The notes below the pieces were generated by a model. The model saw only the letters and a list, made by a program, of their open reading frames with translations. It had not been told where the DNA came from and ran no database searches. A program made the position numbers and the translations under genes. A DNA stretch of 64,000 nucleotides from Agrobacterium tumefaciens. GTDB lineage: Bacteria; Pseudomonadota; Alphaproteobacteria; Rhizobiales; Rhizobiaceae. The stretch is taken from positions 2,081,501 to 2,145,500 of the forward strand of contig NZ_CP039904.1 in NCBI RefSeq assembly GCF_005221385.1, given 5' to 3'. Within the stretch, counting starts at the first letter, position 1. Each line of letters opens with the position of its first letter. This document shows, piece after piece, positions 10,279 to 63,271 of the stretch.

Positions 10279-10526
10279 GTAGCATTTCTGATCTTCAAAG
10301 CCAATGAATCGCGGTGGACGACAAGCTGTAGGACTATCGGACAACCATAAAGCTGAATGCAACTATTGCGATATGGTCGCCCATGGCAATGCACAGTTTG
10401 CTGTTGCTGGCGACGAGAGTTTGTTAAAGAATGATGTTGTAGAGCCTTAAAAGAAAAGTCGGAGTTAGGTTAAGCGGTGATATTCGAACGGGTTATTCAG
10501 ATCTCCAGTAGGCTGAGCGGGTGGTG

Positions 10527-12245
10527 ATGAATTTTGTGAACGTCCATGCTGCTTTGGAAACGCAGGCGGGCGAGCGGGTCGCGTTCGATGCTTCTAATGC
10601 AGCGCGAGGATTGCAAGAACGACGCCAACTCGGGGCATTCTACACACCGCAAAGGCTTAGCGGGATGTTATCGGACTGGGCAATCCGGGGAGCTGACGAT
10701 CTTGTCCTCGAACCTAGCTTCGGCGGTTGCGGATTCCTTGCTTCCGCTTTGTCGACGTTAGCCCGCAGGGGTGCAGCTGACCCTGCGAAAAGAGTATTTG
10801 GCTGCGATATCGACTCTTTAGCATTCACCCACCTATCAAAACTGTTCGACGGCCGTAGCGACCTGGACGGTTTCGTGCAAGGTGATTTCCTCGACTGTTT
10901 TGAAGTTAACGTTTGGCCGAGCCAATTTACGGCGGTGATTGGAAATCCTCCATATATTCCCCATCAGCGCATAGGGAAGGAGAGGGTACGAGATCTCTCC
11001 TCGCGCGTGTGGCCAGTGACAGGCGTTGGAGGTCGGAGTAGCCTTTGGGCCTACTTCATCTGGCACAGTCTAAGATTCATCGCAATTGGCGGGCGTATGG
11101 CTTGGGTTTTGCCCGGCGCGTTCATGCAGGCCGACTATGCAAAAGCGCTGAGGGATTATTTGCCTCGCCGCTTCGAACGCGTCGCTGCATTTGTGGTCCG
11201 TGATAGACTCTTCATTTCGGAAGGAACTGACGAGGAAACGGTAGTCTTGCTAGCCGATGGTTTCCTGTCGTCAGAGGCCGATGGAAGGATGGCTGTCGGG
11301 ATAGCTGCCGATCTTGAGGAACTTGAGAAGACGATCTCGCGATGGAATGAAGGTCTCTGGACTGGTGATTTAAGCGGTCGCAGCGCGGCGAGCCTCAGCC
11401 TCACGTCAGCTGAGACCTCGCTGTTTTCGGCAGTGGCCGCTCACGAGAGCGTAGTAATGTTTGGCAAGCTCGCCAAAGTCCAGATCGGGGTTGTAACCGG
11501 CGCAAACGATTTTTTTGTGTTAAGTCGCTCGGGCCTGGAAGCCGCCGGGATCCCCGAGTCGGTCTGCATCAAAGTGCTTTCCAAGTTTAAGGCATCGGCG
11601 AGCATCACTCTTGTTGACGAGGATTTCCACAAATACGCTGCGGAAGGAGGTAAGACGTTTTTGGTTTCCCTTGGGAATGAAGACCAATGTGCCCCGATCG
11701 AAAAATACCTCTCGACCTTCGATACAAAGCGGCGCGAGGATAACAGTACCTTCCGCAAACGCCGTCATTGGTCTGAGACATATGATGGCAGACATCCAGA
11801 CGCTTTTTTTCCAGTGATGCATCATGATGGCCCGAGACTTGTGCTCAACGAAACCGATGGGACGTCGACGAACACGATACATCGCGTGTTCTTTCATGCC
11901 GCCGCGGCATCGGCCAAAATGCGCAAATTGGCCGCTATCAGCATTTTGACGTCATTCAGTCAGATGTCGGCAGAGATCGTGGGGCGAAGATACGGATCTG
12001 GCGTCTTGAAGCACGAACCACGTGACGCCGAGCGGCTGCAGCTACTGATGCCCAAAGTTGGTACAGCGGAATTGAATTCGGTGTTCCAAGAACTAGACCA
12101 GTTGCTTAGGCGCGGAAGCCGAATCGAAGCGTCCAAGCGAGCCGACAGCTTCATATATGCGGCTGCCGGCCTGACTTCTACGAAGAAAATTTCCGATGAT
12201 CTTCTACAGGCGCTTGCAGTGGTGCGCCAGCGCCGTCGCCCTTGA
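10527..12245 (+). CDS. adenine-specific DNA methyltransferase, Eco57I/N6-type
   Basis: A 572-residue class I SAM-dependent methyltransferase. It has GAFYTPQRLSGMLSDWAI near residue 37, the SAM-binding motif I LEPSFGGCGFLASAL near 62, an acidic motif II FGCDIDSLAF near 92, and the catalytic NPPY at residues 140-143 (VIGNPPYIPHQ). FYTP together with NPPY is typical of N6-adenine methylases of the gamma and Eco57I-like classes. The C-terminal half would be target recognition. The GTG codons at 10521 and 10524 are alternative starts. No endonuclease gene is visible beside it, and it converges with the ATPase operon, leaving 3 bp between stop codons. It may act as a solitary methylase or as the modification arm of that neighbouring system. 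Confidence 0.85.
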   Translation: MNFVNVHAALETQAGERVAFDASNAARGLQERRQLGAFYTPQRLSGMLSDWAIRGADDLVLEPSFGGCGFLASALSTLARRGAADPAKRVFGCDIDSLAFTHLSKLFDGRSDLDGFVQGDFLDCFEVNVWPSQFTAVIGNPPYIPHQRIGKERVRDLSSRVWPVTGVGGRSSLWAYFIWHSLRFIAIGGRMAWVLPGAFMQADYAKALRDYLPRRFERVAAFVVRDRLFISEGTDEETVVLLADGFLSSEADGRMAVGIAADLEELEKTISRWNEGLWTGDLSGRSAASLSLTSAETSLFSAVAAHESVVMFGKLAKVQIGVVTGANDFFVLSRSGLEAAGIPESVCIKVLSKFKASASITLVDEDFHKYAAEGGKTFLVSLGNEDQCAPIEKYLSTFDTKRREDNSTFRKRRHWSETYDGRHPDAFFPVMHHDGPRLVLNETDGTSTNTIHRVFFHAAAASAKMRKLAAISILTSFSQMSAEIVGRRYGSGVLKHEPRDAERLQLLMPKVGTAELNSVFQELDQLLRRGSRIEASKRADSFIYAAAGLTSTKKISDDLLQALAVVRQRRRP

Positions 12246-12248
12246 TCT

Positions 12249-12935
12249 CTATTTTTTTGCCTTTTGCACCCAGCGATCGCCCCACATTGAGCCCAGTGCC
12301 GTCGATTGACCGACACGCAGGCAATCTGCGAGTATTTTTGCGTAGGCTTCGAAGCAAAGCTGTTGGAACAGCTGGATGGACTTGCACCACGCGGGATCGT
12401 CGCGAAGGTGTTTTTTCCAAAGCGCCTCGAAGAAATTGGCAGAGACTACTTCGCAGAGGAGGGCAATCTCCATTGGTGGATGACACCAACGTGGTTCCTT
12501 GACGGGAAAATCCGTTGCACGATGTCCCCGCGCATGCCCGCCGAACTGCAAGTGGTAGGACGGACCGCTCTGCCCTGCATTCGCCCGATCTACATGCCAT
12601 CTTCCGATTGGGTCGCCGACGCGATCAAACATCTCCAACGCTATATCGAGAGATTCAAAAGGCGGATGATGTTCGTCTATCTGCGCGACTTTTATTTTCG
12701 AAATGAGATTGAGTTGAATGTCGTGACCATCTTTGTCCTTGGCGCGAGCGAACGAAATCGGCCGTGCAGGCTTAATTTCAACCGACCATGACTTTGATCT
12801 CTTCTGCTTGATTATGTTCTTGCTCTCGTCGGAAAGCGCGGAACGGCCCTCTTGGGTCAGTATACCGGCCAAGTGTAGCTTTTCCGCGATAACACTCAGA
12901 GCTTTTCCAGCGTCCTCCGCCCTGAAGTCAGTCAT
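12249..12935 (-). CDS. unrecognised protein, third gene of the double-GHKL operon
   Basis: A 228-residue protein that I cannot place in a family. Its start overlaps the stop of the receiver-domain gene by 4 bp (ATGA), which indicates translational coupling. Residues 1-40 are helical and charged. A central segment holds closely spaced His, Cys and aromatic residues (IGRWHVDRANAG, YHLQFGGHARGHRATDF, EPRWCHPPMEIALLCE), which could bind a metal or form an active site. The last 60 residues are predicted helical (ANFFEALWKKHL to FEAYAKILADCL). No signal peptide or membrane segment is seen. Given its position it may be the effector or adaptor of the relay; that is inference. Confidence 0.7.
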   Translation of the reverse strand: MTDFRAEDAGKALSVIAEKLHLAGILTQEGRSALSDESKNIIKQKRSKSWSVEIKPARPISFARAKDKDGHDIQLNLISKIKVAQIDEHHPPFESLDIALEMFDRVGDPIGRWHVDRANAGQSGPSYHLQFGGHARGHRATDFPVKEPRWCHPPMEIALLCEVVSANFFEALWKKHLRDDPAWCKSIQLFQQLCFEAYAKILADCLRVGQSTALGSMWGDRWVQKAKK

Positions 12936-14035
12936 TTTCCACCTTCGGTACGTTCCATTTCCTGGACGTCGTTTACAAGATCCGCATCTGTTTCATCTAC
13001 TTCCAAAGGTGAGTTTAGATGCTTATAGGTGTCTTTCTGTATGCAATCCCAGCAGATACGCCTACGCGTCGTGTATCGTGGGGCTCGAGGATCATAAGCG
13101 GCAAGCGAGTGGCGAAGTTCCGATGGACGGCCGCATGAAGCGCAGGCGAATACTGGATACTCGTCGACGCTACCGTTCCAAGGAGACATATTCGGTCTGA
13201 TTTCCTTCCCTAGCGTATCGCTTAGCTTTGCCGCGCGTTCGGCAGAGGTCAGGCCTGATGATCGGTCCTCGAATATCTTTTCACTGAAGACCTCAAGTCT
13301 CCCTGACCACCATCTGCGCCATCCATCTCCGAGAAGTCCTGTGTATAGGACGCCCGCCTCTTCGAGCGCACGTGCGATCAAATGAAAATCTTCCGGGTTG
13401 ATCCCGAGCATCGCACAGGCCCAATGGTCATCGATTAGGATTGCGGGCCTTTCGATCATGTTTCGAAGTAGCTGGCGAATGATAAGATGCGGAGCTGCGG
13501 CGGTCTCGAAAGAACGACGGAGTTCCTGGCTGTCGAGCTGCTCAGTATCAAGCTCATTCGCGCCGAGAATCTTTGAGATGTCAAATTTCGTGTGCATCTG
13601 TCGAAGAGTCTCGTATGCACGCGCTAGAGCGATCAGCTCTGTTCTGACTCGGCCCCGGTTTTCATTGACCTCTTCTTTGGAATATACTTTGTCGAAAAGA
13701 TCGTGGGCTGTCTTATCGGGATCATATGCCGCCTTGAGCTTGGTTTCGTTGGAGACCAGCACGAGACTAAAGTCGTTGGCTGGATGCATGATCGCTACAT
13801 CCCGCAAAAGCTGAGCTAGCCCGCTGCCTTTATAGGTATGTCCAGCCTCGATACCCGCATCGACTTCATCAAGCCTATAGTCCAACGCGACCACATGTGG
13901 GTTACGCTCGCGGATAGTCAGAGCCTGGGTGGTCAAAGGAGATACCTTTAGGAATTCGAATTCCAATTCACCAGGAGTGCTCATAACGCCGGCGTAGGCC
14001 TCGTCCGCGTCGTCTACAAAAACGCCCTTAAACAT
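12932..14035 (-). CDS. receiver-domain protein with C-terminal four-cysteine zinc cluster
   Basis: A 367-residue protein. Residues 1-120 fit a response-regulator receiver domain: acidic pair D8/D9 (GVFVDDADEAY), candidate phospho-acceptor D52 in VVALDYRL, S95 in LVLVSNE, and K116 in DLFDKVYS. No DNA-binding output domain follows. The middle is helical and the C-terminus carries CASC at 298-301 and CWDC at 328-331, a treble-clef or zinc-ribbon-like arrangement. It starts 14 bp after the ATPase/kinase gene and overlaps the next gene by 4 bp. The obvious inference is that the upstream kinase-like protein phosphorylates D52. What the output does is unknown. Confidence 0.8.
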   Translation of the reverse strand: MFKGVFVDDADEAYAGVMSTPGELEFEFLKVSPLTTQALTIRERNPHVVALDYRLDEVDAGIEAGHTYKGSGLAQLLRDVAIMHPANDFSLVLVSNETKLKAAYDPDKTAHDLFDKVYSKEEVNENRGRVRTELIALARAYETLRQMHTKFDISKILGANELDTEQLDSQELRRSFETAAAPHLIIRQLLRNMIERPAILIDDHWACAMLGINPEDFHLIARALEEAGVLYTGLLGDGWRRWWSGRLEVFSEKIFEDRSSGLTSAERAAKLSDTLGKEIRPNMSPWNGSVDEYPVFACASCGRPSELRHSLAAYDPRAPRYTTRRRICWDCIQKDTYKHLNSPLEVDETDADLVNDVQEMERTEGGK

Positions 14036-14049
14036 CGACTGCTGAAATC

Positions 14050-16560
14050 CTATTTTGAGAGAATGCGAAACTCAATCTTGAAATTGTACCCATGACTGGG
14101 CGTGGCAACCGAAACGGATCCGCCATAACTTTCGGCGATGTCTGAAACGATTTTTAGACCTAATCCCGTGCCGGGGCCTGCTATGCCGTCCTCCTCCGAA
14201 CCAGCACTGGTCGTGAAGAATGGATCGAATATGCGGTCAGCGATTTCCGGTTCTAACCCTGTGCCGTTGTCTTCGAATGCGAGCACGATGTGCTGATCGA
14301 TTTTCCGCGCGGATATCCTGATTCTTTTAGGATGGGCCTTGGCACGCTTCATCGATTTGACTGCATTGGTCAGGAAGTTAAGCAGCATAGAGTCAAATTC
14401 GGCCGAGTGCATCGCCGTTGTCCGGATAGAAGGTGGCGATATGTCGAGGACAAAGTCGACACCCTGCTTGGTCATGTAGTTTTTGAACTGCGCCACGAAC
14501 CGTTGGACGGATCCTTGCACTGACAGCTCGTTAAGTTCCCGGCTTTCGGTCTGGGACAGCAATCCAGCGATGTATCCTCCGATGTCGAAGACGCGGCTTA
14601 CCGCTTTCTGCAGCTCCAGATGCTGGTCGGAAAGCTTGCCCTTCATCACCGGGTCCGCTATTTCCAAAACGAGATCGTTCAGCAGATGAAGGTTCGATAC
14701 CAGTGCTCCCTGAGAGCCTTTGATTTCGTGGCCGAAGACGCCGATTGATATCCCAAGCGAAGCCAATATCCGCAGCATCTCCTCGTACTCGATGGAGGCC
14801 GCGCGCTGCTGCTCTACAACCCGCTCGTACTCGACGATGAGTTGTTCCGCTTCGGCAAGGCTTTCTTGGACTTCTTCGTTGACGTCGCTGTCTTGCCTAC
14901 TCGTAATTAGGCGCTCTCGGAAGTCTCTGAGGACCTCGGAGGGCTTTTTCTGTTCGGGAACGTAGTTGCGCTCGCTGGCTCTGGTCTTACGCTTGCGTGT
15001 TGAAGCTATTCTGATTGCAGCCCACTCTAACGCCCAGCGGGTGAAACGGCGCAATTCCACAAATGCTTCATTTTCTATGAGGCCTTCACGGCTACTAGTC
15101 TCTTCGAATAGCGATTCCGACAAAGGAGGAATGCTGACTTGACCGAAAAAATTCGAGTTGTTGGCTGGGACGAGAATATTTCTGCGACCAGTATCAGCAG
15201 CTAGCTGAAGCCAGTCGTCCGTGGGGTCACCGTACGGCTGGACGCGAAAGCCATTGCGGTAGATTCGAATGCCACCAAACTCGCGGCTCATACGTGCGGC
15301 TTGTTGAATGGATAAGCCTGAAAAATGTTCTGGGCTGTAAATGAAGTATCGCGAATCCAGTTTGACCGGACCAGTCAAAAGAAACTTTTCTTCGCATATT
15401 GCCTGCTCATCCAGCTCGAATTTCGGGGATGTAACCCGCAAGCTGGCAATTCCCTTATCATCGATAGCAGCCGTGATCGTTGCAAGCGCATGCGAGAGAA
15501 ACGATCGTTCGATAGAAAATAGTTCGCGCTGGCTCTCTTGGGAAACGTCGTTAATTTCTACTTTGAATCCGGGGTCCGCCCTAAAGCCCCCCTCCAGAAC
15601 GAGGTGGGTATCGTCGATCGCTACGGGGAATGGTGGCTGTAGCAGAACGACAGCTCGCCACACCTTTTCGATATCCGATGCTGACCATCGCTCACGCAGG
15701 TCCTCGATTTGAAGTCGGGTGCCATGATCTTCGGAGGGCTTTGAAAATCGCTCTATTGAGCTGAATACGTCTTGAAGTGAAGCACCCGCAATGAAGTCGC
15801 GGTCCCAGTCAAACTGAACTCGATAACCAAAGCTCTCACCTGCTGGTTTGGACACGAATGTGAGGCGCTTTCCCAGACGCTGCACAGAGAATCGTCCAAT
15901 ACCTTTTTTACCGGCACGAGCACGACCGAACACCGGCGAGGTGGGCTCGGTATCTTTCGCGTTCGTTGATATCCGCATCCACGACGACCGGATGACGTCC
16001 TCGGTCATCCCCACGCCGTCGTCTTCGATAACGAGACTGCCGCCTATTTTTTCCTGATTGCTGAAAGTAAGTGTGACCTTCGTAGCATCTGCGTCGTAGG
16101 CGTTCTTGATGAGTTCAGAGAGAGCGGTTTCCTGCTTGCTGACAAGCTGCTCGCCGAGCCTTTGGATATGGGCAGCATCGACAGAAAACCGAACTCGGTT
16201 AGGATCGTCATCAACAAACTCCCGGCTGGCCGCTTCCACGAGATGCCAATTCGGGATTTTCTTGCTGACCTCAGCTTCGACTATCTTCCGTGGGTCGATA
16301 CTGGTCGTGTGATCCAAGTCGGCGTCGTATTCTACGGGGTGCTCAGCATGCGAGACTTGAAAGCTCAAAACGCTTTCCCGACCCTTATCGACATAGCCGC
16401 CATGGACGATGCTGAGCTTGCCAGGGGTTATGCCAACGAACACGCCAGCTGCGGTGATCAGCTCGACTACCTCGTTGGCATTCCTAGCCTTTCTTATGTA
16501 CCAAGTACCGCCAAAACGAAAAGGGTAGCCAATAATCTTGTCTTCGGTCATGTTATCCAC
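14050..16560 (-). CDS. double-GHKL protein: Hsp90/MORC-like ATPase fused to a histidine-kinase module
   Basis: An 836-residue protein with two separate GHKL ATPase folds. The first, residues about 130-330, has ALSELIKNAYDADAT (catalytic E149, N153), VIEDDGVGM (D180/D181) and the glycine-rich GKKGIGRFS near 218, as in Hsp90, MutL and MORC. A charged coiled coil covers about 550-600 (ESLAEAEQLIVEYERVVEQQ). H611 in GVFGHEIKG resembles a phospho-acceptor histidine box. The C-terminal kinase ATPase has NFLTNAVKSM near 728, FEDNGTGL near 763, IFDPFFTT and GTGLGLKIV near 797. It has no membrane segment or signal peptide, so the sensor is cytoplasmic. It is the first gene of the operon with the receiver protein. 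GHKL ATPases of the MORC/MutL type are known in restriction-like operons; the fusion to a kinase is what is striking. Confidence 0.85.
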   Translation of the reverse strand: MDNMTEDKIIGYPFRFGGTWYIRKARNANEVVELITAAGVFVGITPGKLSIVHGGYVDKGRESVLSFQVSHAEHPVEYDADLDHTTSIDPRKIVEAEVSKKIPNWHLVEAASREFVDDDPNRVRFSVDAAHIQRLGEQLVSKQETALSELIKNAYDADATKVTLTFSNQEKIGGSLVIEDDGVGMTEDVIRSSWMRISTNAKDTEPTSPVFGRARAGKKGIGRFSVQRLGKRLTFVSKPAGESFGYRVQFDWDRDFIAGASLQDVFSSIERFSKPSEDHGTRLQIEDLRERWSASDIEKVWRAVVLLQPPFPVAIDDTHLVLEGGFRADPGFKVEINDVSQESQRELFSIERSFLSHALATITAAIDDKGIASLRVTSPKFELDEQAICEEKFLLTGPVKLDSRYFIYSPEHFSGLSIQQAARMSREFGGIRIYRNGFRVQPYGDPTDDWLQLAADTGRRNILVPANNSNFFGQVSIPPLSESLFEETSSREGLIENEAFVELRRFTRWALEWAAIRIASTRKRKTRASERNYVPEQKKPSEVLRDFRERLITSRQDSDVNEEVQESLAEAEQLIVEYERVVEQQRAASIEYEEMLRILASLGISIGVFGHEIKGSQGALVSNLHLLNDLVLEIADPVMKGKLSDQHLELQKAVSRVFDIGGYIAGLLSQTESRELNELSVQGSVQRFVAQFKNYMTKQGVDFVLDISPPSIRTTAMHSAEFDSMLLNFLTNAVKSMKRAKAHPKRIRISARKIDQHIVLAFEDNGTGLEPEIADRIFDPFFTTSAGSEEDGIAGPGTGLGLKIVSDIAESYGGSVSVATPSHGYNFKIEFRILSK

Positions 16561-16916: not shown

Positions 16917-18401
16917 CTACGGCCGTTTAGACTCTTCGAGGACACGCGCATCGCGCGGGTAGTCACCCGGACGTTGCGGCTGCGCAATTAGCAGAGTGAG
17001 AAGGACTACTCCCAGCATGGCTAAGCCTGCAGCATAGAATATCGTCAGTCGTCGTTCGGAATTCGTTTTCCAGCAGAGGATTTTTACATCGCCGCTCATT
17101 TGCGAGATCGTCGTGCCGAGACCGATCCCCGGAATTCGATCGGCAAACTCTTTTTCGATCGTGCTAGCGTGTTTAACAGCTCCCCGGAGGAAGATATGGT
17201 ACCAATATCGATCCATAAAAAAGAAGGCTAACCAAGCGAAGCCGGCAGCGAGTACAAGCCCCACGCCCGCTGAAATCCTGACACCAAACACATCCGCCTG
17301 AAGGCCCTGCTGATAGGTAAAGCCCACCGAAGCGATCAGCGCACCCACCACCGTTATCGCGAAATTCCTTATGCGCATTTCTAGATCATTGAAATGCTGT
17401 TGGACGTCGACGGTCTTCTTCCAAGTTTCAAGAGCATACTGGGTTGCCGTTTTGTCATCGACGATCGCACCAGGCTTGATATTGAACGACTCGAATTCGC
17501 AGTGAATAAAAATTTCAGCGAAGGAATCTGTCAGCACTGCACTTGGTTCGAAGTCGTGACCCTTCTCAACGATGGCCTTTTCACGCTGTACATCGGCTTC
17601 CGTCCAATGAGACACTTGCCTTAAAAGGTCATATTCAGGGCGGCGCTGACTCTCGCCGTACTTTGCGTGTATATCGAAGACACCGACATCGCGAGCCATC
17701 GCAACATCTTTGAAAAGGCTGTCTCCGACGTAGGCGCATCGATTGACCGTCGCGCCTACCTCCTTGATGATATCCAGCAGCACGCGTGGATTTGGCTTGA
17801 GTTCATCCGGCGGGGTGTGGCGCGATTCCGTAACCTGTAGTTCGTAGAATTCCTCTGGAAGTCTTCGCATCCTGTCGACCGACACACCGCTTGGCATATC
17901 GTGGTCCTCGGGACTAAACATTACGTCTATAACACCGTCCAACCCGAAGCGCTTCAGGCGGTACGCGCTGTAAAACGCCATGGACTCCGTATAAGCGACG
18001 ATCTTCGTGCCTTGGCCTTTAATCCGCCACAGGGACCTCAAAACGCTTGGGTAGAGTTTGAGGTTGAGGTCCCGACCCTGCCGCGACAATTCGATAGCTT
18101 CTCGGAACGCTGTTCGAATGTCCCCGCGCTGGCGCAAGTCGGCAAGTGCTTCAATTTCCTCGAGAAGGAATGTGTATTCGGAGGTGCGACGTATCCGATG
18201 CACATTTCGAATGTCAGCCTGAATTTCTGCTTCGGCGCGGACGGTCTGTTTTATTATCTCGCGGTAGATTGGCTCAAAAGACGCGTACCATACCGCGAAC
18301 CAATCAAAGAGGGTGTTGTCAAGATCAAGGATGAGGGTATCGACGACTTTGCGCGGCACGGGATGTCTTTCAAAAGTTATGGTGGCGCTGTTCGCAGCCA
18401 T
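16917..18401 (-). CDS. HAD-superfamily hydrolase fused to C-terminal transmembrane helices
   Basis: A 494-residue protein. Residues 20-250 have all four HAD phosphatase motifs: LILDLDNTLFDW (D26, D28), AYTES (T138), KPNPRVL (K202) and YVGDSLFKDVAMARD (D227, D232). Residues about 330-475 are a membrane module: helices at 347-364, 373-397 and 450-473, with an amphipathic stretch between. The pairing of a soluble enzymatic domain with a small multi-helix module recalls membrane effectors of conflict systems, but I cannot name the membrane domain. Monocistronic on the minus strand, it ends in a strong hairpin. It could instead be a lipid or nucleotide phosphatase anchored in the inner membrane. 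Confidence 0.8.
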   Translation of the reverse strand: MAANSATITFERHPVPRKVVDTLILDLDNTLFDWFAVWYASFEPIYREIIKQTVRAEAEIQADIRNVHRIRRTSEYTFLLEEIEALADLRQRGDIRTAFREAIELSRQGRDLNLKLYPSVLRSLWRIKGQGTKIVAYTESMAFYSAYRLKRFGLDGVIDVMFSPEDHDMPSGVSVDRMRRLPEEFYELQVTESRHTPPDELKPNPRVLLDIIKEVGATVNRCAYVGDSLFKDVAMARDVGVFDIHAKYGESQRRPEYDLLRQVSHWTEADVQREKAIVEKGHDFEPSAVLTDSFAEIFIHCEFESFNIKPGAIVDDKTATQYALETWKKTVDVQQHFNDLEMRIRNFAITVVGALIASVGFTYQQGLQADVFGVRISAGVGLVLAAGFAWLAFFFMDRYWYHIFLRGAVKHASTIEKEFADRIPGIGLGTTISQMSGDVKILCWKTNSERRLTIFYAAGLAMLGVVLLTLLIAQPQRPGDYPRDARVLEESKRP

Positions 18402-18692: not shown

Positions 18693-19613
18693 TTATTTGC
18701 TAGTGGCCGCGCCGAACGTGGCCGGCAGCGCCGTCTCCTTGATTTTACCTAGCATAGCCGCCAGTTTCTCCTTCTGCGAGCTTTCGTCGAGTCGGATCTG
18801 CCACCCGAGATGCTCATCGACGAACGTATCCATGATATCGAGATCGGTGAAAGCGACTTCAGCGCGGCCAAGCGTCAGGAAATTGAGAAAGGTCGCCTGC
18901 TGCCAGATCGTGAGTTTCTCAAGCTCGGCAGTGAGCGCAGGTTGCGAACACCAAAAAAGTCCGGACGTTGGGCTCAGGGCGAGTCCCACAAGGAAGTTTC
19001 GCTCATAACTACCGACGCGGCCAACCGGATAATTTGAGGACAGCAGCCGCGGGGCGTGTGTCTCGAACGCAATAGGCGGGCAGCCGAAAAGGATGTCGGA
19101 GAAGGTGAAGTCATTGGCGATCCCCAGGCCTGCTGCCGTTTTACCGGTGTGAATGGAAGACAAAAGACGTGCAGCCTCGCGAGCACCGACTGTGTCGCCA
19201 GAAACCGCGTTTTGACCGGCGTGCAGCGCTCCGACGTCGGCCTCGGATAGGCTCATCAGCGCAATCGTTCTAGGATTCCGCATTTCAAGCATCACGACAT
19301 AATGACTGAAGGTCCTGCGTTCTTCGGACGATAGTGAACGTATGCCTGTTTCCCTGGCTTTCTTGACGATCTCGGCACCGGGGGTATCGAGAAGTGCGGT
19401 CACGATTGTCGTTTCGAATTCAGCTCGCCCGTCGGTATTCTCTATCACGTAGAGGTCATTCTCAGAGCCAAGATTGACGATGCCGGCGCCCTTCCTGAAA
19501 TGCAACTTGCCGGTATGAGCGATGCGCACATATCGGCTAACGAGCCTGCCGTCCTGGGACCAAGCAGCTAGAAAATGCTGCGGAACATAGTGATGGTTAG
19601 TGGGTGTGTTCAT
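18693..19613 (-). CDS. DUF4238 domain-containing protein
   Basis: A 306-residue protein identified by its N-terminal NHHYVPQHFLAAW, the hallmark of DUF4238, followed by a tryptophan/arginine-rich sheet region (DGRLVSRYVRI) and helical blocks (EERRTFSHYVVMLEMRNPRT). The start at 19613 puts NHHYVPQ at residue 6, as is normal; upstream codons in the open frame are not conserved-looking. The HHxxP pattern suggests a metal site, and relatives often sit in defence or mobile regions, but no activity is established. It is flanked by unrelated single genes, so no operon partner is evident. Confidence 0.8.
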   Translation of the reverse strand: MNTPTNHHYVPQHFLAAWSQDGRLVSRYVRIAHTGKLHFRKGAGIVNLGSENDLYVIENTDGRAEFETTIVTALLDTPGAEIVKKARETGIRSLSSEERRTFSHYVVMLEMRNPRTIALMSLSEADVGALHAGQNAVSGDTVGAREAARLLSSIHTGKTAAGLGIANDFTFSDILFGCPPIAFETHAPRLLSSNYPVGRVGSYERNFLVGLALSPTSGLFWCSQPALTAELEKLTIWQQATFLNFLTLGRAEVAFTDLDIMDTFVDEHLGWQIRLDESSQKEKLAAMLGKIKETALPATFGAATSK

Positions 19614-19963
19614 AGCCTTCATCCTACGCGTTGCCGATGTTGCGACAGGTTCGGACGAACATGAAATCAAATTCTGTCAGAAACCTTACCGGTACGCGAA
19701 AAACGCCGGCCAAGGCGAGTGCCAAACCTACCGACCGCGGTTTTGGTGAGCAATTCGCCCTCGAAACCCATCTCGGCAGCAAATGCCGACAGCTTGCAGA
19801 GATCGAGGCTCATCTGGCCGCGACGCAAGAGTAAGAAGGCGGGGATGAGGGGCGGCGTGTGGCGTGAAATGCGCGGATGATCCTCGCAAATTATTACCCA
19901 AATATTTGCCTTTTGCTCGTTTTGGTTGTACGCTTGCGCTCTATGTCTCTGGGGGGAGGATCT
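19614..19963. other. intergenic gap between divergent DUF4238 and lipoprotein genes
   Basis: A 350-bp divergent spacer that should hold promoters for both genes. A short open frame on the + strand, 19661-19834 (57 codons, ending AEIEAHLAATQE), has no convincing ribosome-binding site and is not recognised. Confidence 0.4.
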
Positions 19964-21597: not shown

Positions 21598-22710
21598 TTA
21601 TATCTTGCCCGTCGAGCTGAGGTTCTTCAGTCCTTCTTTAAGTTCACCCCAGCCATCGATCCATGCTGGCCTGACGCCCAAATGCGTGAGACTTGCTAGG
21701 AGTATTTCCTGCGTGAGCGTGTCACTTGGCTTCGGCCGGATCCAGATATGCTGCGGATTGGATCGGTCGGAGTTCCCATGCGCGCGATGATAGTCCTTCG
21801 CGTCCGCCTCTAGGGAGCTCATCCATCGACGTATATTGGTATCCGACATCGACAGGCCACAGAAAACCATATGTGTCGATTGGCCATAAAAGAGATAGAC
21901 GCTCTGCGCCCAGGCGGATCGGCCGCTCGAAAGAGCGAGATATTCTTCTTCAAGGAATACGAGACGATCGCGGCGATCTCGCGTGCGGCCACCAACGCGC
22001 TCCAAGGGAGCGATCGAGCCGTGGCAATGATAGATCGGGATCTTGTCGTCGTAGGCGCCGCCGGTGCCATTCACTGCAGCGAAGAGGTAGGGCGGATGGC
22101 CGTGCGGCGGCGGACCGCGGTAGTGCTCGCGACGTAGATAGAGGTCTATGTACGTTTCGAGAAAAGTATCTGCGTTGAACGAAAGGACGGCCTGTGGACC
22201 GTGTCCCGCCTTGGCGGCTTCGATGAGGAACTGCCCAACCGGAAACAGAGAACATCCGGGGAAGCTGTCTTCGAGGAAGTCGCAGACTTCGATGGCTTTC
22301 TTTTTCTCGATTGTTTTCGGGTTGTTCAAAACTGCCGTGAGGTAGGACTCCAGACCTAGGCCGCGCGCCTTGCTTCTGATCGTGGCATACAGGCATTGCT
22401 CAATTGCCTCTGTCACATCGGCATTGCTCTTGCCTTTCCGCTTAAACTCGTTTGCGGCCGCCTGTATCAGGCCATCAAGCGACCAACCCAGGGCCAACAA
22501 GCGATCAAACGTCGTTTGTGGTATATCTTCGCCGAATGACTGAGACATGAGCTCTTGCGTCAAACTCTGCCAATCAGGGGCTATTCCTCTTGAAATTCCG
22601 GCCCCGAGGCACACCGTGTAGCGGTTTGGCTTCAGATATCCTCGAAATTTGGGATCACAAGCAAGAACGGGCTTGAGGAGGCCCTTGGCAGTGGAAGCGC
22701 TGATAGTCAT
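21598..22710 (-). CDS. SIR2-family protein (predicted NAD-consuming defence effector)
   Basis: A 370-residue SIR2 domain protein. The NAD-binding GAGIS is at residues 36-40 (YTVCLGAGISRGIAPDW), SFNAD at 178-182 (N180, D182), and the catalytic-type histidine in HCHGS at 229-233. The family's C-terminal VFCGLSMSD block is present. There is no zinc-ribbon of deacetylase sirtuins, which fits the bacterial NADase branch used in anti-phage systems such as Thoeris and DSR. The start is uncertain: 22710 gives the best-looking N-terminus, and 22746 is an alternative. It is a single gene with no obvious partner, converging on the DUF429 remnant. NAD depletion on infection is inference from the family. 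Confidence 0.85.
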   Translation of the reverse strand: MTISASTAKGLLKPVLACDPKFRGYLKPNRYTVCLGAGISRGIAPDWQSLTQELMSQSFGEDIPQTTFDRLLALGWSLDGLIQAAANEFKRKGKSNADVTEAIEQCLYATIRSKARGLGLESYLTAVLNNPKTIEKKKAIEVCDFLEDSFPGCSLFPVGQFLIEAAKAGHGPQAVLSFNADTFLETYIDLYLRREHYRGPPPHGHPPYLFAAVNGTGGAYDDKIPIYHCHGSIAPLERVGGRTRDRRDRLVFLEEEYLALSSGRSAWAQSVYLFYGQSTHMVFCGLSMSDTNIRRWMSSLEADAKDYHRAHGNSDRSNPQHIWIRPKPSDTLTQEILLASLTHLGVRPAWIDGWGELKEGLKNLSSTGKI

Positions 22711-23406
22711 CGATGTTCCAAATAATTGATTTAATGATTTAATCATCTCATAGTTGTGTTTCGTCCCGGTTAACGCGGTCTGCCATAGCGGGACATCGCG
22801 TCGATGCATAGTCGGCCCCGGGACCGGCCATGGGTGCTGATGCGGCACGTGCACCGAGAGCCTGCGCGGCGGCGCGGCTGGGCGGGTCTCGTGCCGTTTG
22901 AAAATCGCTTCCGTCGGGAAGGGCTTTGCCCCCAGCGCAAAATTCGGTACGGAGCAGGTTCCCGGACGCCTCCGCCTGCTGCCGGAAAGGATGCTGGATG
23001 AGCTGAAGGCGATTACTGAACCACGAGCACCCTACTCGGCAATGGCCGGCGCCTGGCTTGAGGACTTCATGCAAAAAATCGCATGGGCCGCCACGACGAA
23101 TGCGCGATAGTCGCACTCGCGATCACCTACAGCCATGCACATTGCGTTCGATTTGAGGCTCGTGAGTTAACCCCTTGTTTGCTCCATAAGCTGCCTTACG
23201 CCGCACCTATTATCCGCATACGCCAAATAAACGAGGTTTCAGCTACATAGAAGATTTGATGGGCAGGTCGCAGGTTCAATTCCCATCAAGAGCTTAACTT
23301 CAGGCCCAAAACTGTCCGCGCATTAAGAGCGTTGTCCTGACGATCACAAAGGGTGCGAAATAATGAAGTTGTCTTGCAACTCCCATCGCCGCCGCACGAA
23401 TTGATT
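22711..23406. other. gap between SIR2 and Fic genes
   Basis: About 700 bp without a supportable gene. The left part is GC-rich with overlapping short frames of no recognised family (one + frame, 22898-23110, ends EDFMQKIAWAATTNAR). The right part is AT-richer and holds the tRNA-3'-end-like element listed next. Confidence 0.4.
23256..23293 (+). repeat. tRNA-3'-end-like element, copy A
   Basis: TTGATGGG (23256-23263) pairs exactly with CCCATCAA (23282-23289), and between them lies GGTTCAATTCC, which looks like a tRNA T-arm. The 21-base core 23273-23293 recurs with few changes at 24853, 58764 and 63289. No complete tRNA cloverleaf can be drawn. It lies about 115 bp past the stop of the minus-strand fic gene. 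Confidence 0.55.
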
Positions 23407-24549
23407 TTACCCGGTATGAGAAGCGTGGTTCGCTGAGAAGTTTAAAACCAACTCGTAGGCCGTGCTGCGTCCACCAGCTTCGCCTCTTCGTAAAATTCCT
23501 TTCGCCATCAGGTCCGCAATATCGCGAGATGCCGTATCCTGGGAGGCGTTCGTCAATTTTGCCCACTTTGTCGATGTGAGCTTGCCCTGGAAATTTCCTT
23601 CTAAGAGCCGGTTGATGACTTTAGCTTGTCGTGAATTGAGATCGCTTGCAGAATGCGTATGCCAGAAATCATTCTTCAGCATCACGTTGTCGAGGGTCAG
23701 CAGCGCCTCACCTACAGCGTTGCCCAGACGATCGAGGAACCACTCGATCCAGCTCGTGATGTCGAGGCTTTTTTTGCTGGTAATTGATTGCAGTGCTTCA
23801 TAATACCCGATGCGGGATCGCTCGATTGCTGCGGACATGGAATAAAGTCGCTGCGCTCCGCCGCCGCCGCGTGCAAGCGTCATGTCAGCTATCGCACGAG
23901 TTATGCGGCCGTTGCCATCGCCGAAAGGGTGGATCGCAACAAACCAGAGATGGGCAATGGCTGCTTTGATGAGGGGATCCGGTTCGTGCGAACCGTTAAA
24001 CCACTCAAGAAAAGTTAACATCTCAGCTTCAACGCGATCTGCGGGCGGAGCAACATAGTGGACTTTCTCATGCCCGAATGCACCAGAAACGATTTCCATA
24101 CGGCCGCCAGAGTCGTCACGCCAATCGCCGACACGAAGCCTATGACCCCATTCGTTGCGGCCGGTCGGGAATAGGGCCGCATGCCATTGGAACAGTCGCT
24201 CGGCCGTCAGTGGTTCCGCGCAATTGATGGTGGCATCGAGCGTGATATGGACGATGCCCTCGATTGAGCGGTTTGGAGTAACAAATCCATCGATATCGAT
24301 ACCTAGGCGCCTGGCGAGCGAGGATCGAACCTGTTGCTCATCCAACTGTTCTCCCTCGATCGCTGATGACTTTACGACGTCATCGGTCAATGCTCGCAGA
24401 AATGTCGCCTCGCGGGTACGAAAGCCGAGGCTTTCGACGCGGCCAATAAGTCGTCCTTGATCAAGGCGTACATCCGCAATCCTTGATGTAAGGCGGTCAT
24501 TATGCCACTCGAAGTTTGGCCATAGGGTGGATTGCCAGATATAGGTCAT
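23407..24549 (-). CDS. Fic family protein (DUF4172-type N-terminus, predicted AMP transferase)
   Basis: A 380-residue Fic protein. The catalytic motif HPFGDGNGR begins at H207, giving the full HxFx(D/E)GNGRxxR pattern. An inhibitory helix SSAIEGE at residues 61-67 fits the (S/T)xxxE(G/N) form, so the enzyme is probably self-inhibited in cis (class II). The N-terminus YIWQSTLWPNFEWHNDRL is the DUF4172 type. The C-terminus, about 300-365, reads as a winged helix (LTNASQDTASRDIADLMAKGILRR), which could bind DNA. Such proteins transfer AMP from ATP to a target protein. Palindromic repeats at 24568-24631, just upstream, could be bound by its own winged helix. Confidence 0.9.
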   Translation of the reverse strand: MTYIWQSTLWPNFEWHNDRLTSRIADVRLDQGRLIGRVESLGFRTREATFLRALTDDVVKSSAIEGEQLDEQQVRSSLARRLGIDIDGFVTPNRSIEGIVHITLDATINCAEPLTAERLFQWHAALFPTGRNEWGHRLRVGDWRDDSGGRMEIVSGAFGHEKVHYVAPPADRVEAEMLTFLEWFNGSHEPDPLIKAAIAHLWFVAIHPFGDGNGRITRAIADMTLARGGGGAQRLYSMSAAIERSRIGYYEALQSITSKKSLDITSWIEWFLDRLGNAVGEALLTLDNVMLKNDFWHTHSASDLNSRQAKVINRLLEGNFQGKLTSTKWAKLTNASQDTASRDIADLMAKGILRRGEAGGRSTAYELVLNFSANHASHTG

Positions 24550-62082: not shown

Positions 62083-63271
62083 ATGTCTGATTCCGAATCC
62101 AAAAACCGCCTGGGTCGTTTCGTCGAGACGGTTGCTGCCAGTGAAACAGTGCGGGCGTTCGTGCCCCCACCATTGCCGCCCGAGCCGGTGATTGATGTGC
62201 TTTCATAGCTAGAGCGCCTCAGCTTGGCTGAGCGCGCACTAGGACGCCTGAATGGTATCACAATGCTGCTGCCGAGACAGGAGCTTTTCCTTTATATGTA
62301 TGTAAGGAAGGAAGCCGTTCTTTCCTCGCAGATTGAAGGCACGCAGTCGACGCTTTCTAATCTCTTGCGGTTTGAGACCGAAGCTCAAGCCGGGCAGCCG
62401 GTTGATGATATCCGTGAAGTATCCAACTATGTTGACGCCATGATGTATGGTTTAGAGCGGCTGGAAACGTTGCCCATGTCGTTGCGTCTGATCCGTGAGA
62501 TGCACGCCAAGCTCCTGCACAGTGGGCGAGGAGGTACCAAAGATCCAGGAGAGTTTCGCCGCTCGCAAAATTGGATTGGTGGCACGCGCCCCGGTAACGC
62601 ACTCTTTGTACCGCCACCCGTTACTGAAATGGCCGGTTGCCTGGATGCGTTCGAGCGTTTCATGCATGACGACCAATCGAGGTTACCGGCGCTGATCAAA
62701 GCTGGCCTGCTGCATGTGCAGTTTGAAACGATCCATCCATTTCTCGATGGCAATGGCCGTATCGGCCGCCTACTTGTAACCCTATATCTTTGCATGAACG
62801 GCGTTCTGCGAAAGCCGCTACTCTACCTCAGCCTCTATCTGAAGTCCCATAGGAGAGAATATTATCGGCTACTGCAAGAAGTTCGGGAACATGGAACATG
62901 GAAACTGGGAAGCTTGGCTAGACTTTTTCCTGACCGGCGTCGCCGACACTGCCAATCAAGCGTTTGAGGCTGCTACCCAGATCGTCGATCTTTTCAAGGA
63001 AGATCGAGAGCGGATAACCGTAGGGAGTGATAGAGCAGGGTCGGCTCTTCGTATTCACGAGCTTTTCCAGCAGAATCCTTTTCACACAGCGAACCAGATT
63101 GTTCAGGTGACGGGTTTGTCCGCACCAACGGTCAACGCCGCACTCGCCGACCTAGAGCGATTGGGCATCGTTGATGAGGTTACCGGACGCAAGCGTGGCC
63201 GGGTGTTCAGCTATCGACGATACCTTGCGATTCTAGGAGAAGGCACCGATCCCTTGCCTCTCAATTCATGA
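62083..63271 (+). pseudogene. Fic family gene, inactivated by amber codon and 7-bp duplication
   Basis: The intended product, about 395 residues, starts MSDSESKNRLGRFVETVAAS and shows the inhibitory SSQIEGTQST, and the catalytic HPFLDGNGRIGR. An amber codon at 62206-62208 interrupts the N-terminus after 41 residues. At 62888-62901 the heptamer AACATGG is repeated in tandem, which shifts the frame so that EHGNWEAWLDFFL is broken; the winged-helix C-terminus (NQIVQVTGLSAPTVNAALAD) continues in the other frame to 63271. A restart at 62224 could give a protein with the Fic core but a scrambled tail. This Fic is of a different subfamily from the one at 23407. Confidence 0.88.

Follow-up and report, generated by a model that had tools for sequence, protein, structure and literature searches.

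Results

A four-gene set in the window

We analysed a 64,000-nucleotide stretch of the Agrobacterium tumefaciens contig NZ_CP039904.1 (positions 2,081,501 to 2,145,500; hereafter the window), for which a preliminary description had proposed an undescribed signalling or defence operon of three genes. The open reading frames of the window confirmed this trio on the minus strand, encoding a paraMORC-like ATPase fused to a histidine kinase (14050-16560, 836 amino acids, aa), a receiver protein (12932-14035, 367 aa) and a third protein (12249-12935, 228 aa). The three genes are thus real, but viewing them as a trio had overlooked both their occurrence on viral contigs and a neighbouring fourth gene. 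The latter (10521-12245, plus strand, 574 aa) is convergent with the trio, its end lying 3 bp from that of the third gene, and encodes an Eco57I-like N6-adenine DNA methyltransferase of the gamma type (NPPY motif). Together, the four genes look like a mobile set, scattered among bacteria and viral contigs, that resembles a DNA restriction system switched by a phosphate relay, and the earlier interpretation as a whole was partly supported.

Gene content across bacterial and viral loci

A first fetch with the receiver profile retrieved 15 loci (14 genome contigs and 1 viral contig). The kinase, receiver and third genes were adjacent in 13 of them, the remaining two being from Thiomargarita, and a methyltransferase homologue lay beside them in 12 of the 15; the arrangement of the trio, named beforehand as a point on which the proposal could fall, is therefore regularly kept. 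In the thirteenth trio locus (L023) the contig edge comes right after the third gene, and in L009 only the last 138 residues of the methyltransferase are on the contig. One of the Thiomargarita loci (L022) held only shortened remnants. The kinase was split into two frames in L009 (438-2732) and L016 (7647-9998), through either decay or sequencing error. A plasmid of Hymenobacter (Bacteroidota) carried the kinase, receiver, third and N6 methyltransferase genes on one strand as a single run with gaps of 1, 13 and 0 bp, and profiles built without the Hymenobacter record matched all four plasmid genes (E 3e-169, 1.6e-43, 1.5e-10 and 3e-11; 82 frames searched). Near this run (L024 / L052), the plasmid also encodes a protein with a Piwi domain and another, large DNA methyltransferase.

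Scanning viral contigs with the kinase alignment returned 11 loci, one of them already in the first set, and the 10 others were examined. The order methyltransferase-kinase-receiver-third was complete in 7 of the 10; L059 held only the kinase, receiver and third genes on a contig that starts at the kinase, L055 had the kinase alone, at the end of a contig and in two frames, and one locus (L064) was of a sibling type described below. Frames in the seven complete loci overlapped at 18 of 21 junctions, as judged from the longest frames, whose true starts may lie later. Defence cargo in prophages is often placed between integrase and repressor, and in L057, L058, L060 and L061 the cassette lay between an integrase and an opposite-strand phage repressor-type gene, with one extra frame before the repressor in L058. 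Three of these loci (L058, L060 and L061) start with a same-looking IMPDH/GMP reductase-type gene, recognised by Pfam in L058 and by the same protein start in all three, which suggests a common site of integration.

The conservation counts below refer to 19 complete loci, each with all four genes together: the one in the window, 10 from Alphaproteobacteria, that of the Hymenobacter plasmid and 7 on viral contigs. In one of these (L063) the methyltransferase frame is short, the first motifs being absent. L009 and L016 were excluded for their divided kinase and L023 and L059 because the methyltransferase falls beyond the contig, as were L055, L021, L022 and L064. Four loci found later (L081, L090, L101 and L106) also matched all four profiles and stand outside the 19; L090 has its methyltransferase upstream, on the opposite strand. 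Within the 19, the methyltransferase occurred in three orders, namely upstream co-directional, downstream co-directional and, as in the window, downstream convergent. Since the Hymenobacter plasmid and other loci hold the same four genes in changing order, gene content is kept while the methyltransferase moves, and because the methyltransferase belongs to the set, the set is restriction-modification-like.

Pairwise distances were highly correlated among the kinase, receiver and third protein (r 0.957-0.965), and those of the methyltransferase correlated with each of the other proteins (r 0.778-0.798; n=19 and p 0.0001 throughout). Within the 11 alpha-type loci the corresponding values were 0.88-0.94 and 0.65-0.76. 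The varying place of the methyltransferase, together with other defence-like genes in the region, would fit unrelated defence-island neighbours that happen to travel together, but the same four families recur, with correlated distances, in Alphaproteobacteria, on a Bacteroidota plasmid and on viral contigs, and we regard such an association by chance as very improbable. The distribution is rare and patchy: the genome analysed here was the sole carrier among 39 of its genus and, as judged by both the receiver and the third protein, among 385 of its class, and with the kinase at E 1e-60 it stood alone among 299 of its phylum. The closest proteins came from Shinella sp. BE166, the receiver matching at 88% and the third protein at 93%.

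Conserved residues of the kinase, receiver and methyltransferase

The N-terminal GHKL module of the kinase (residues ~124-300; 15661-16191, minus strand) matched HATPase_c_3 of Pfam (E 3.8e-25) and carries the conserved motifs of paraMORC ATPases (E149, N153, DDGVGM, KKGIGRFS), and the BbrUII/HgiDII model NF050001 matched residues 124-320 with 93.4 bits. A role of this Hsp90-like module as a sensor of DNA or protein damage, as once suggested, found no support in our analysis. The C-terminal kinase ATPase (residues 723-832; 14065-14394) matched HATPase_c (E 1.5e-27), and in the kinase profile alignment H611 (14728-14730), the candidate phospho-donor, aligned with the SHELRT histidine of a solved histidine kinase. 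Residues E149, N153, D180, G220, G222, H611, E612, N728 and N732 were each present in 19/19 complete loci, and region 300-525 was also conserved. Residues 1-88 form an extension without counterpart in the other alphaproteobacterial and viral members of the alignment, although the Hymenobacter protein has one of similar length; the GTG start of the kinase may not be the real one.

The receiver protein was modelled with a mean predicted local distance difference test score (pLDDT) of 89.6 as a CheY-like receiver (residues 1-146; 13598-14035, minus strand), followed by a middle part for which the model weakly supports a winged-helix-like fold and by a C-terminal part with four cysteines. The best matches of the model among solved structures of the Protein Data Bank (PDB) were receivers, and strands 2-8, 24-30, 48-52, 90-95 and 116-119 place D8/D9, D52, S95 and K120 at the positions that receivers need. 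None of 44 members matched the standard receiver family PF00072, and the assignment therefore rests on residues and fold. Residue frequencies were calculated over 136 sequences, not all independent (the window, 119 of the 211 proteins found and 16 loci). The candidate phospho-acceptor D52 (13880-13882) was D in 135 of the 136, with N in the Thiomargarita locus L021. K116, earlier taken for the receiver lysine, was dropped in favour of K120 (13676-13678), which follows beta-5: position 116 is K in 16/136 sequences and position 120 in 136/136. D8, D9, D52, S95 and K120 were each kept in 19/19 complete loci, so that the kinase histidine and ATP-binding residues and the receiver acidic pair, aspartate, S/T and lysine of a two-component system are all present in every one of them. 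Conservation of H611 and D52, on which the preliminary description had staked its phosphorelay, thus held, and that across loci supports a signalling or defence-like module with a kinase histidine, a receiver aspartate and a third partner. The four cysteines (C298/C301...C328/C331; 13043-13144), a putative zinc site, were each found in 134 to 135 of the 136 sequences; in the wider set C301, C328 and C331 were kept in just 11/19 loci, which makes the zinc site a lineage-specific rather than a defining feature. C298 (13142-13144) is invariant in 19/19 loci, even where the other three cysteines are lost.

The methyltransferase matched Eco57I (E 2.5e-11), M_Eco57I_C (E 8.7e-10) and N6_Mtase (E 3.7e-9) in Pfam, and the PADLOC model MTase_II (PDLC03267, E 3.2e-70) over residues 38-553. 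Its NPPY motif was kept in 11/11 sequences of a smaller comparison and in 19/19 complete loci. The four-gene set accordingly holds the DNA methyltransferase expected of a type II restriction-modification system.

A third protein of no recognised fold

For the third protein of the window, none of Pfam, NCBIfam, PADLOC and PHROGs gave a matching family. When 5.8 billion proteins were searched with its profile, 54 matched at E<=1, and none of those 54 carried a precomputed Pfam domain. The AlphaFold2 model (pLDDT 92.4; predicted TM-score, pTM, 0.90) shows two helices at the N-terminus, then a series of long strands and then further helices, and Foldseek found no match for it at E<=0.001 in either the PDB or the viral models of BFVD. 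Conservation was concentrated in residues 114-154 (12474-12596, minus strand; HxD ... HxQ ... PRxxHxP): in an alignment of 71 sequences, H114 and D116 were kept in 71/71 and H128, R149 and P154 in 70/71, the single remaining row being gapped. In the complete loci H114, D116, H128, R149, P154, N167, W173 and Y198 were each kept in 19/19, H152 in 18/19 and Q130 in 15/19. The invariant polar residues fall in three short segments, HxD (114-116), Hx[QH] (128-130) and PRxxHxP (148-154), which suggests that these form one candidate active site. No restriction endonuclease was recognised in the kinase, receiver or third protein with Pfam, PADLOC or NCBIfam, the matches to REase_II (PADLOC) and NF050001 being confined to the GHKL part of the kinase; the third protein is a candidate for that role. 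As the receiver and third protein of the window match no PADLOC model, a PADLOC scan would fail to recognise the set as a system.

Sibling loci carry other genes in third position

In the sibling locus L064, a gene weakly matching N6 methyltransferases (E 1.1e-6 with the profile and 0.0022 with Pfam N6_Mtase, the latter below its cut-off) is followed by the kinase, a receiver (PF00072 E 0.00019, below cut-off) and an HNH endonuclease (PF01844, 23.3 bits, above cut-off). Scanning more widely, we obtained 105 relatives and retained 80, and 72 loci were examined, among which a few rows represent identical or nearly identical contigs. Of the 72, 66 encode a full-length kinase of this type, and the HNH family of L064 takes the second place after the kinase in 9 rows, or 8 contigs given that L138 is L064's own; a further copy lies in another position in L134. 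Of the 155 neighbour genes listed, 95 were scanned, yielding C5 methylase (10), N6_N4 (8), Eco57I (7) and N6_Mtase (7) together with HNH (8), Response_reg (5), Vsr (3) and Lactamase_B (3); these counts cover the 25 of 31 families listed, do not resolve positions, and one protein can count in several. The paraMORC-kinases of L064 and L080-L150 form a large family on viral contigs, wider than the type found in the window, in which the accompanying methyltransferases and third-position genes are diverse. That some siblings carry nucleases in third position is the main reason for calling the third protein an effector.

These observations bear on a different reading, in which the kinase and receiver regulate the methyltransferase as a control circuit or epigenetic switch, the winged-helix part binding DNA and setting expression while the third protein is an accessory. 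The winged-helix-like middle of the receiver protein would suit such a regulator, and for a related pair the authors of PMC8011034 proposed signalling that controls restriction-modification systems. Against it, the frames of the seven complete viral loci are closely packed and mostly overlapping and so leave little room for separate control of the methyltransferase, the third protein is conserved as strictly as the other proteins, and an HNH nuclease replaces it in sibling loci. We therefore consider regulation of the methyltransferase unlikely.

Relation to known systems

The set is not undescribed in the widest sense, since the closest kind in print, two-component-like pairs of HEF_HK (PF19191) and Response_reg_2 (PF19192) proteins lying beside type II restriction-modification genes, was published in 2021 (Bellieny-Rabelo et al. 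2021, PMC8011034). That study, in the portion at hand, started from genes raised in expression in one plant-associated bacterium and presents no functional experiment beyond that. The pair shares with our set the architecture of a HATPase_c_3 + H-box + HATPase_c kinase, an adjacent receiver gene and a nearby methyltransferase. Profiles of HEF_HK and of the window-type kinase aligned across the H-box and ATPase (hhalign probability 97, E 8.9e-11), indicating from profile similarity that the window kinase is a distant homologue of the HEF_HK kinase, whereas Response_reg_2 and the window-type receiver gave a weak alignment on the phospho-aspartate strand (probability 10.6). In direct domain searches, PF19192 matched 0/44 receivers at E up to 10, and PF19191 failed to match the window kinase and weakly matched 2 of 13 kinases (best E 0.049). 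The two also differ in receiver length (367 aa in the window; 600 aa for the query of PMC8011034 and 590-596 aa for frames in three of four loci), in methyltransferase class (adenine Eco57I-like as opposed to mainly C5) and in the window set having a third protein family of its own. Of four loci with PF19192, two have a gene after the receiver gene that looks Vsr-like by eye, and two break off ~0.3 kb past the receiver gene. Given the same logic and distant kinase homology, but two failed domain tests, a shorter receiver, another methyltransferase class and a third protein of its own, we regard the window set as a variant of a known, predicted kind.

GHKL ATPases of the paraMORC type in restriction-modification operons were described by Iyer et al. 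(2008, PMC2292703), who proposed that MORC-type ATPases of restriction systems loop DNA. ParaMORC systems likewise link an N-terminal GHKL ATPase to methyltransferase genes, but the ATPase of the window is fused to a histidine kinase and has a receiver partner. The resemblance to the BbrUII/HgiDII restriction enzymes is similarly limited to the GHKL region: the score to NF050001 is far under the 550-bit whole-protein cut-off, and the C-terminal part is a kinase.

Detocs uses phosphorelay logic in defence, with a TPR-bearing kinase and a nucleosidase-type effector, and is not known to include a methyltransferase. The logic of our set is alike; neither the TPR nor the nucleosidase-type domain of Detocs was found in the trio (Pfam, E<=1). 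Abortive-infection signalling of this kind could be envisaged, with the phosphorelay activating a toxin, the third protein, that acts otherwise than by cleaving DNA; the methyltransferase would then serve just to protect the host or take part in sensing. Such a scheme would share the pairing of phosphorelay and effector, and would suit a third protein in which no DNA-cutting motif was recognised. The methyltransferase is nevertheless constant in 19 loci, and HNH nucleases occupy the third position in siblings, making this explanation unlikely.

A proposed restriction-like defence gated by a phosphorelay

The reading that we favour, and consider fairly probable, is a defence resembling restriction-modification: self DNA would be marked by the methyltransferase, and phosphate passed from the MORC-like ATPase-kinase to the receiver would license the third protein to act as effector. 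The four genes would form one mobile cassette against phages, with the phosphorelay controlling its attack step. Host DNA would be marked by the methyltransferase at its target sequence, and unmarked DNA would be engaged by the paraMORC-like N-terminal ATPase of the kinase, whose ATP-driven shape change would switch on the C-terminal kinase and lead to autophosphorylation at H611. The phosphate would then pass from H611 to D52 of the receiver protein, and the winged-helix-like and C-terminal parts of the phospho-receiver would bind the third protein or let it go. The third protein, in turn, would most likely cleave DNA, or else another nucleic acid, through the H114/D116/H128/R149 cluster. What the sequences establish are the domains, the invariant residues, the stable four-gene content in shifting order and the presence on viral contigs, in four cases next to integrase and repressor; DNA sensing, the direction of the relay, and the activation and chemistry of the third protein are predicted steps.

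Several observations weigh against this model. Neither a nuclease signature nor a recognised fold was found in the third protein (Pfam, NCBIfam, PADLOC, PHROGs, and Foldseek against the PDB and BFVD), and its likeness to HNH and Vsr is an analogy of position. Several sibling third-position genes match neither the HNH nor the third-protein profile, and other outputs therefore exist. Flanking by both integrase and repressor was seen in just 4 of the 10 viral loci. The distance correlations, calculated without a housekeeping control, indicate at most joint descent and not interaction. Finally, the Thiomargarita locus L021 (5314-7148 on a 10.5-kb contig) consists of a receiver with N at position 52 and a third gene, no kinase or methyltransferase match being found on the contig, and this receiver/third-protein pair may function independently or be a remnant.

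In a more ambitious form, possible although short of probable, cutting would be licensed by a histidine-aspartate phosphorelay, the MORC-like ATPase reading methylation and reporting it by phosphate transfer to a cutter whose fold is unmatched among solved structures, and the wider family (paraMORC-kinase, receiver and an exchangeable effector, be it HNH, possibly Vsr or the orphan protein of the window) would constitute a large phage-borne class of kinase-gated restriction. Were the favoured reading right, a two-component system, which ordinarily leads to transcription, would here act as the switch of a machine for DNA restriction, and this would explain the intact phosphorelay in GHKL kinases linked to restriction-modification genes. 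The set is compact and its defined residues (H611, D52, H114/D116) are open to direct test, and the third protein would represent an effector family without a recognised fold.

Genomic surroundings

Among the neighbours of cassette relatives, 87 of the 122 listed frames were scanned against PADLOC (E<=1e-15). The matches listed, covering 25 of 28 models, included one each of Avs2, type IIG, pAgo, DrmMI, mad3, DruM, type II methyltransferase, caspase and TniQ near the relatives, counts that stand without a background rate for comparison. In the window, 16917-18401 (minus strand) encodes a HAD-type hydrolase with a C-terminal membrane part (PADLOC Hydrolase E 4e-79, Hydrolase-TM E 5.8e-39); because no homologue was listed beside the cassette in the 15 loci first fetched, it is probably a separate defence-like gene. 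A lower-GC stretch (~10-26 kb of the window) also contains genes for a DUF4238 protein (18693-19670, minus strand; Pfam) and for a protein that is SIR2-like by eye and found no PADLOC match (21598-22854, minus strand). Two Fic-type proteins matching PADLOC SoFic are encoded at 23407-24549 (minus strand) and 62224-62967 (plus strand), and one of them, like the HAD hydrolase with its membrane part, lies within 12 kb of the cassette.

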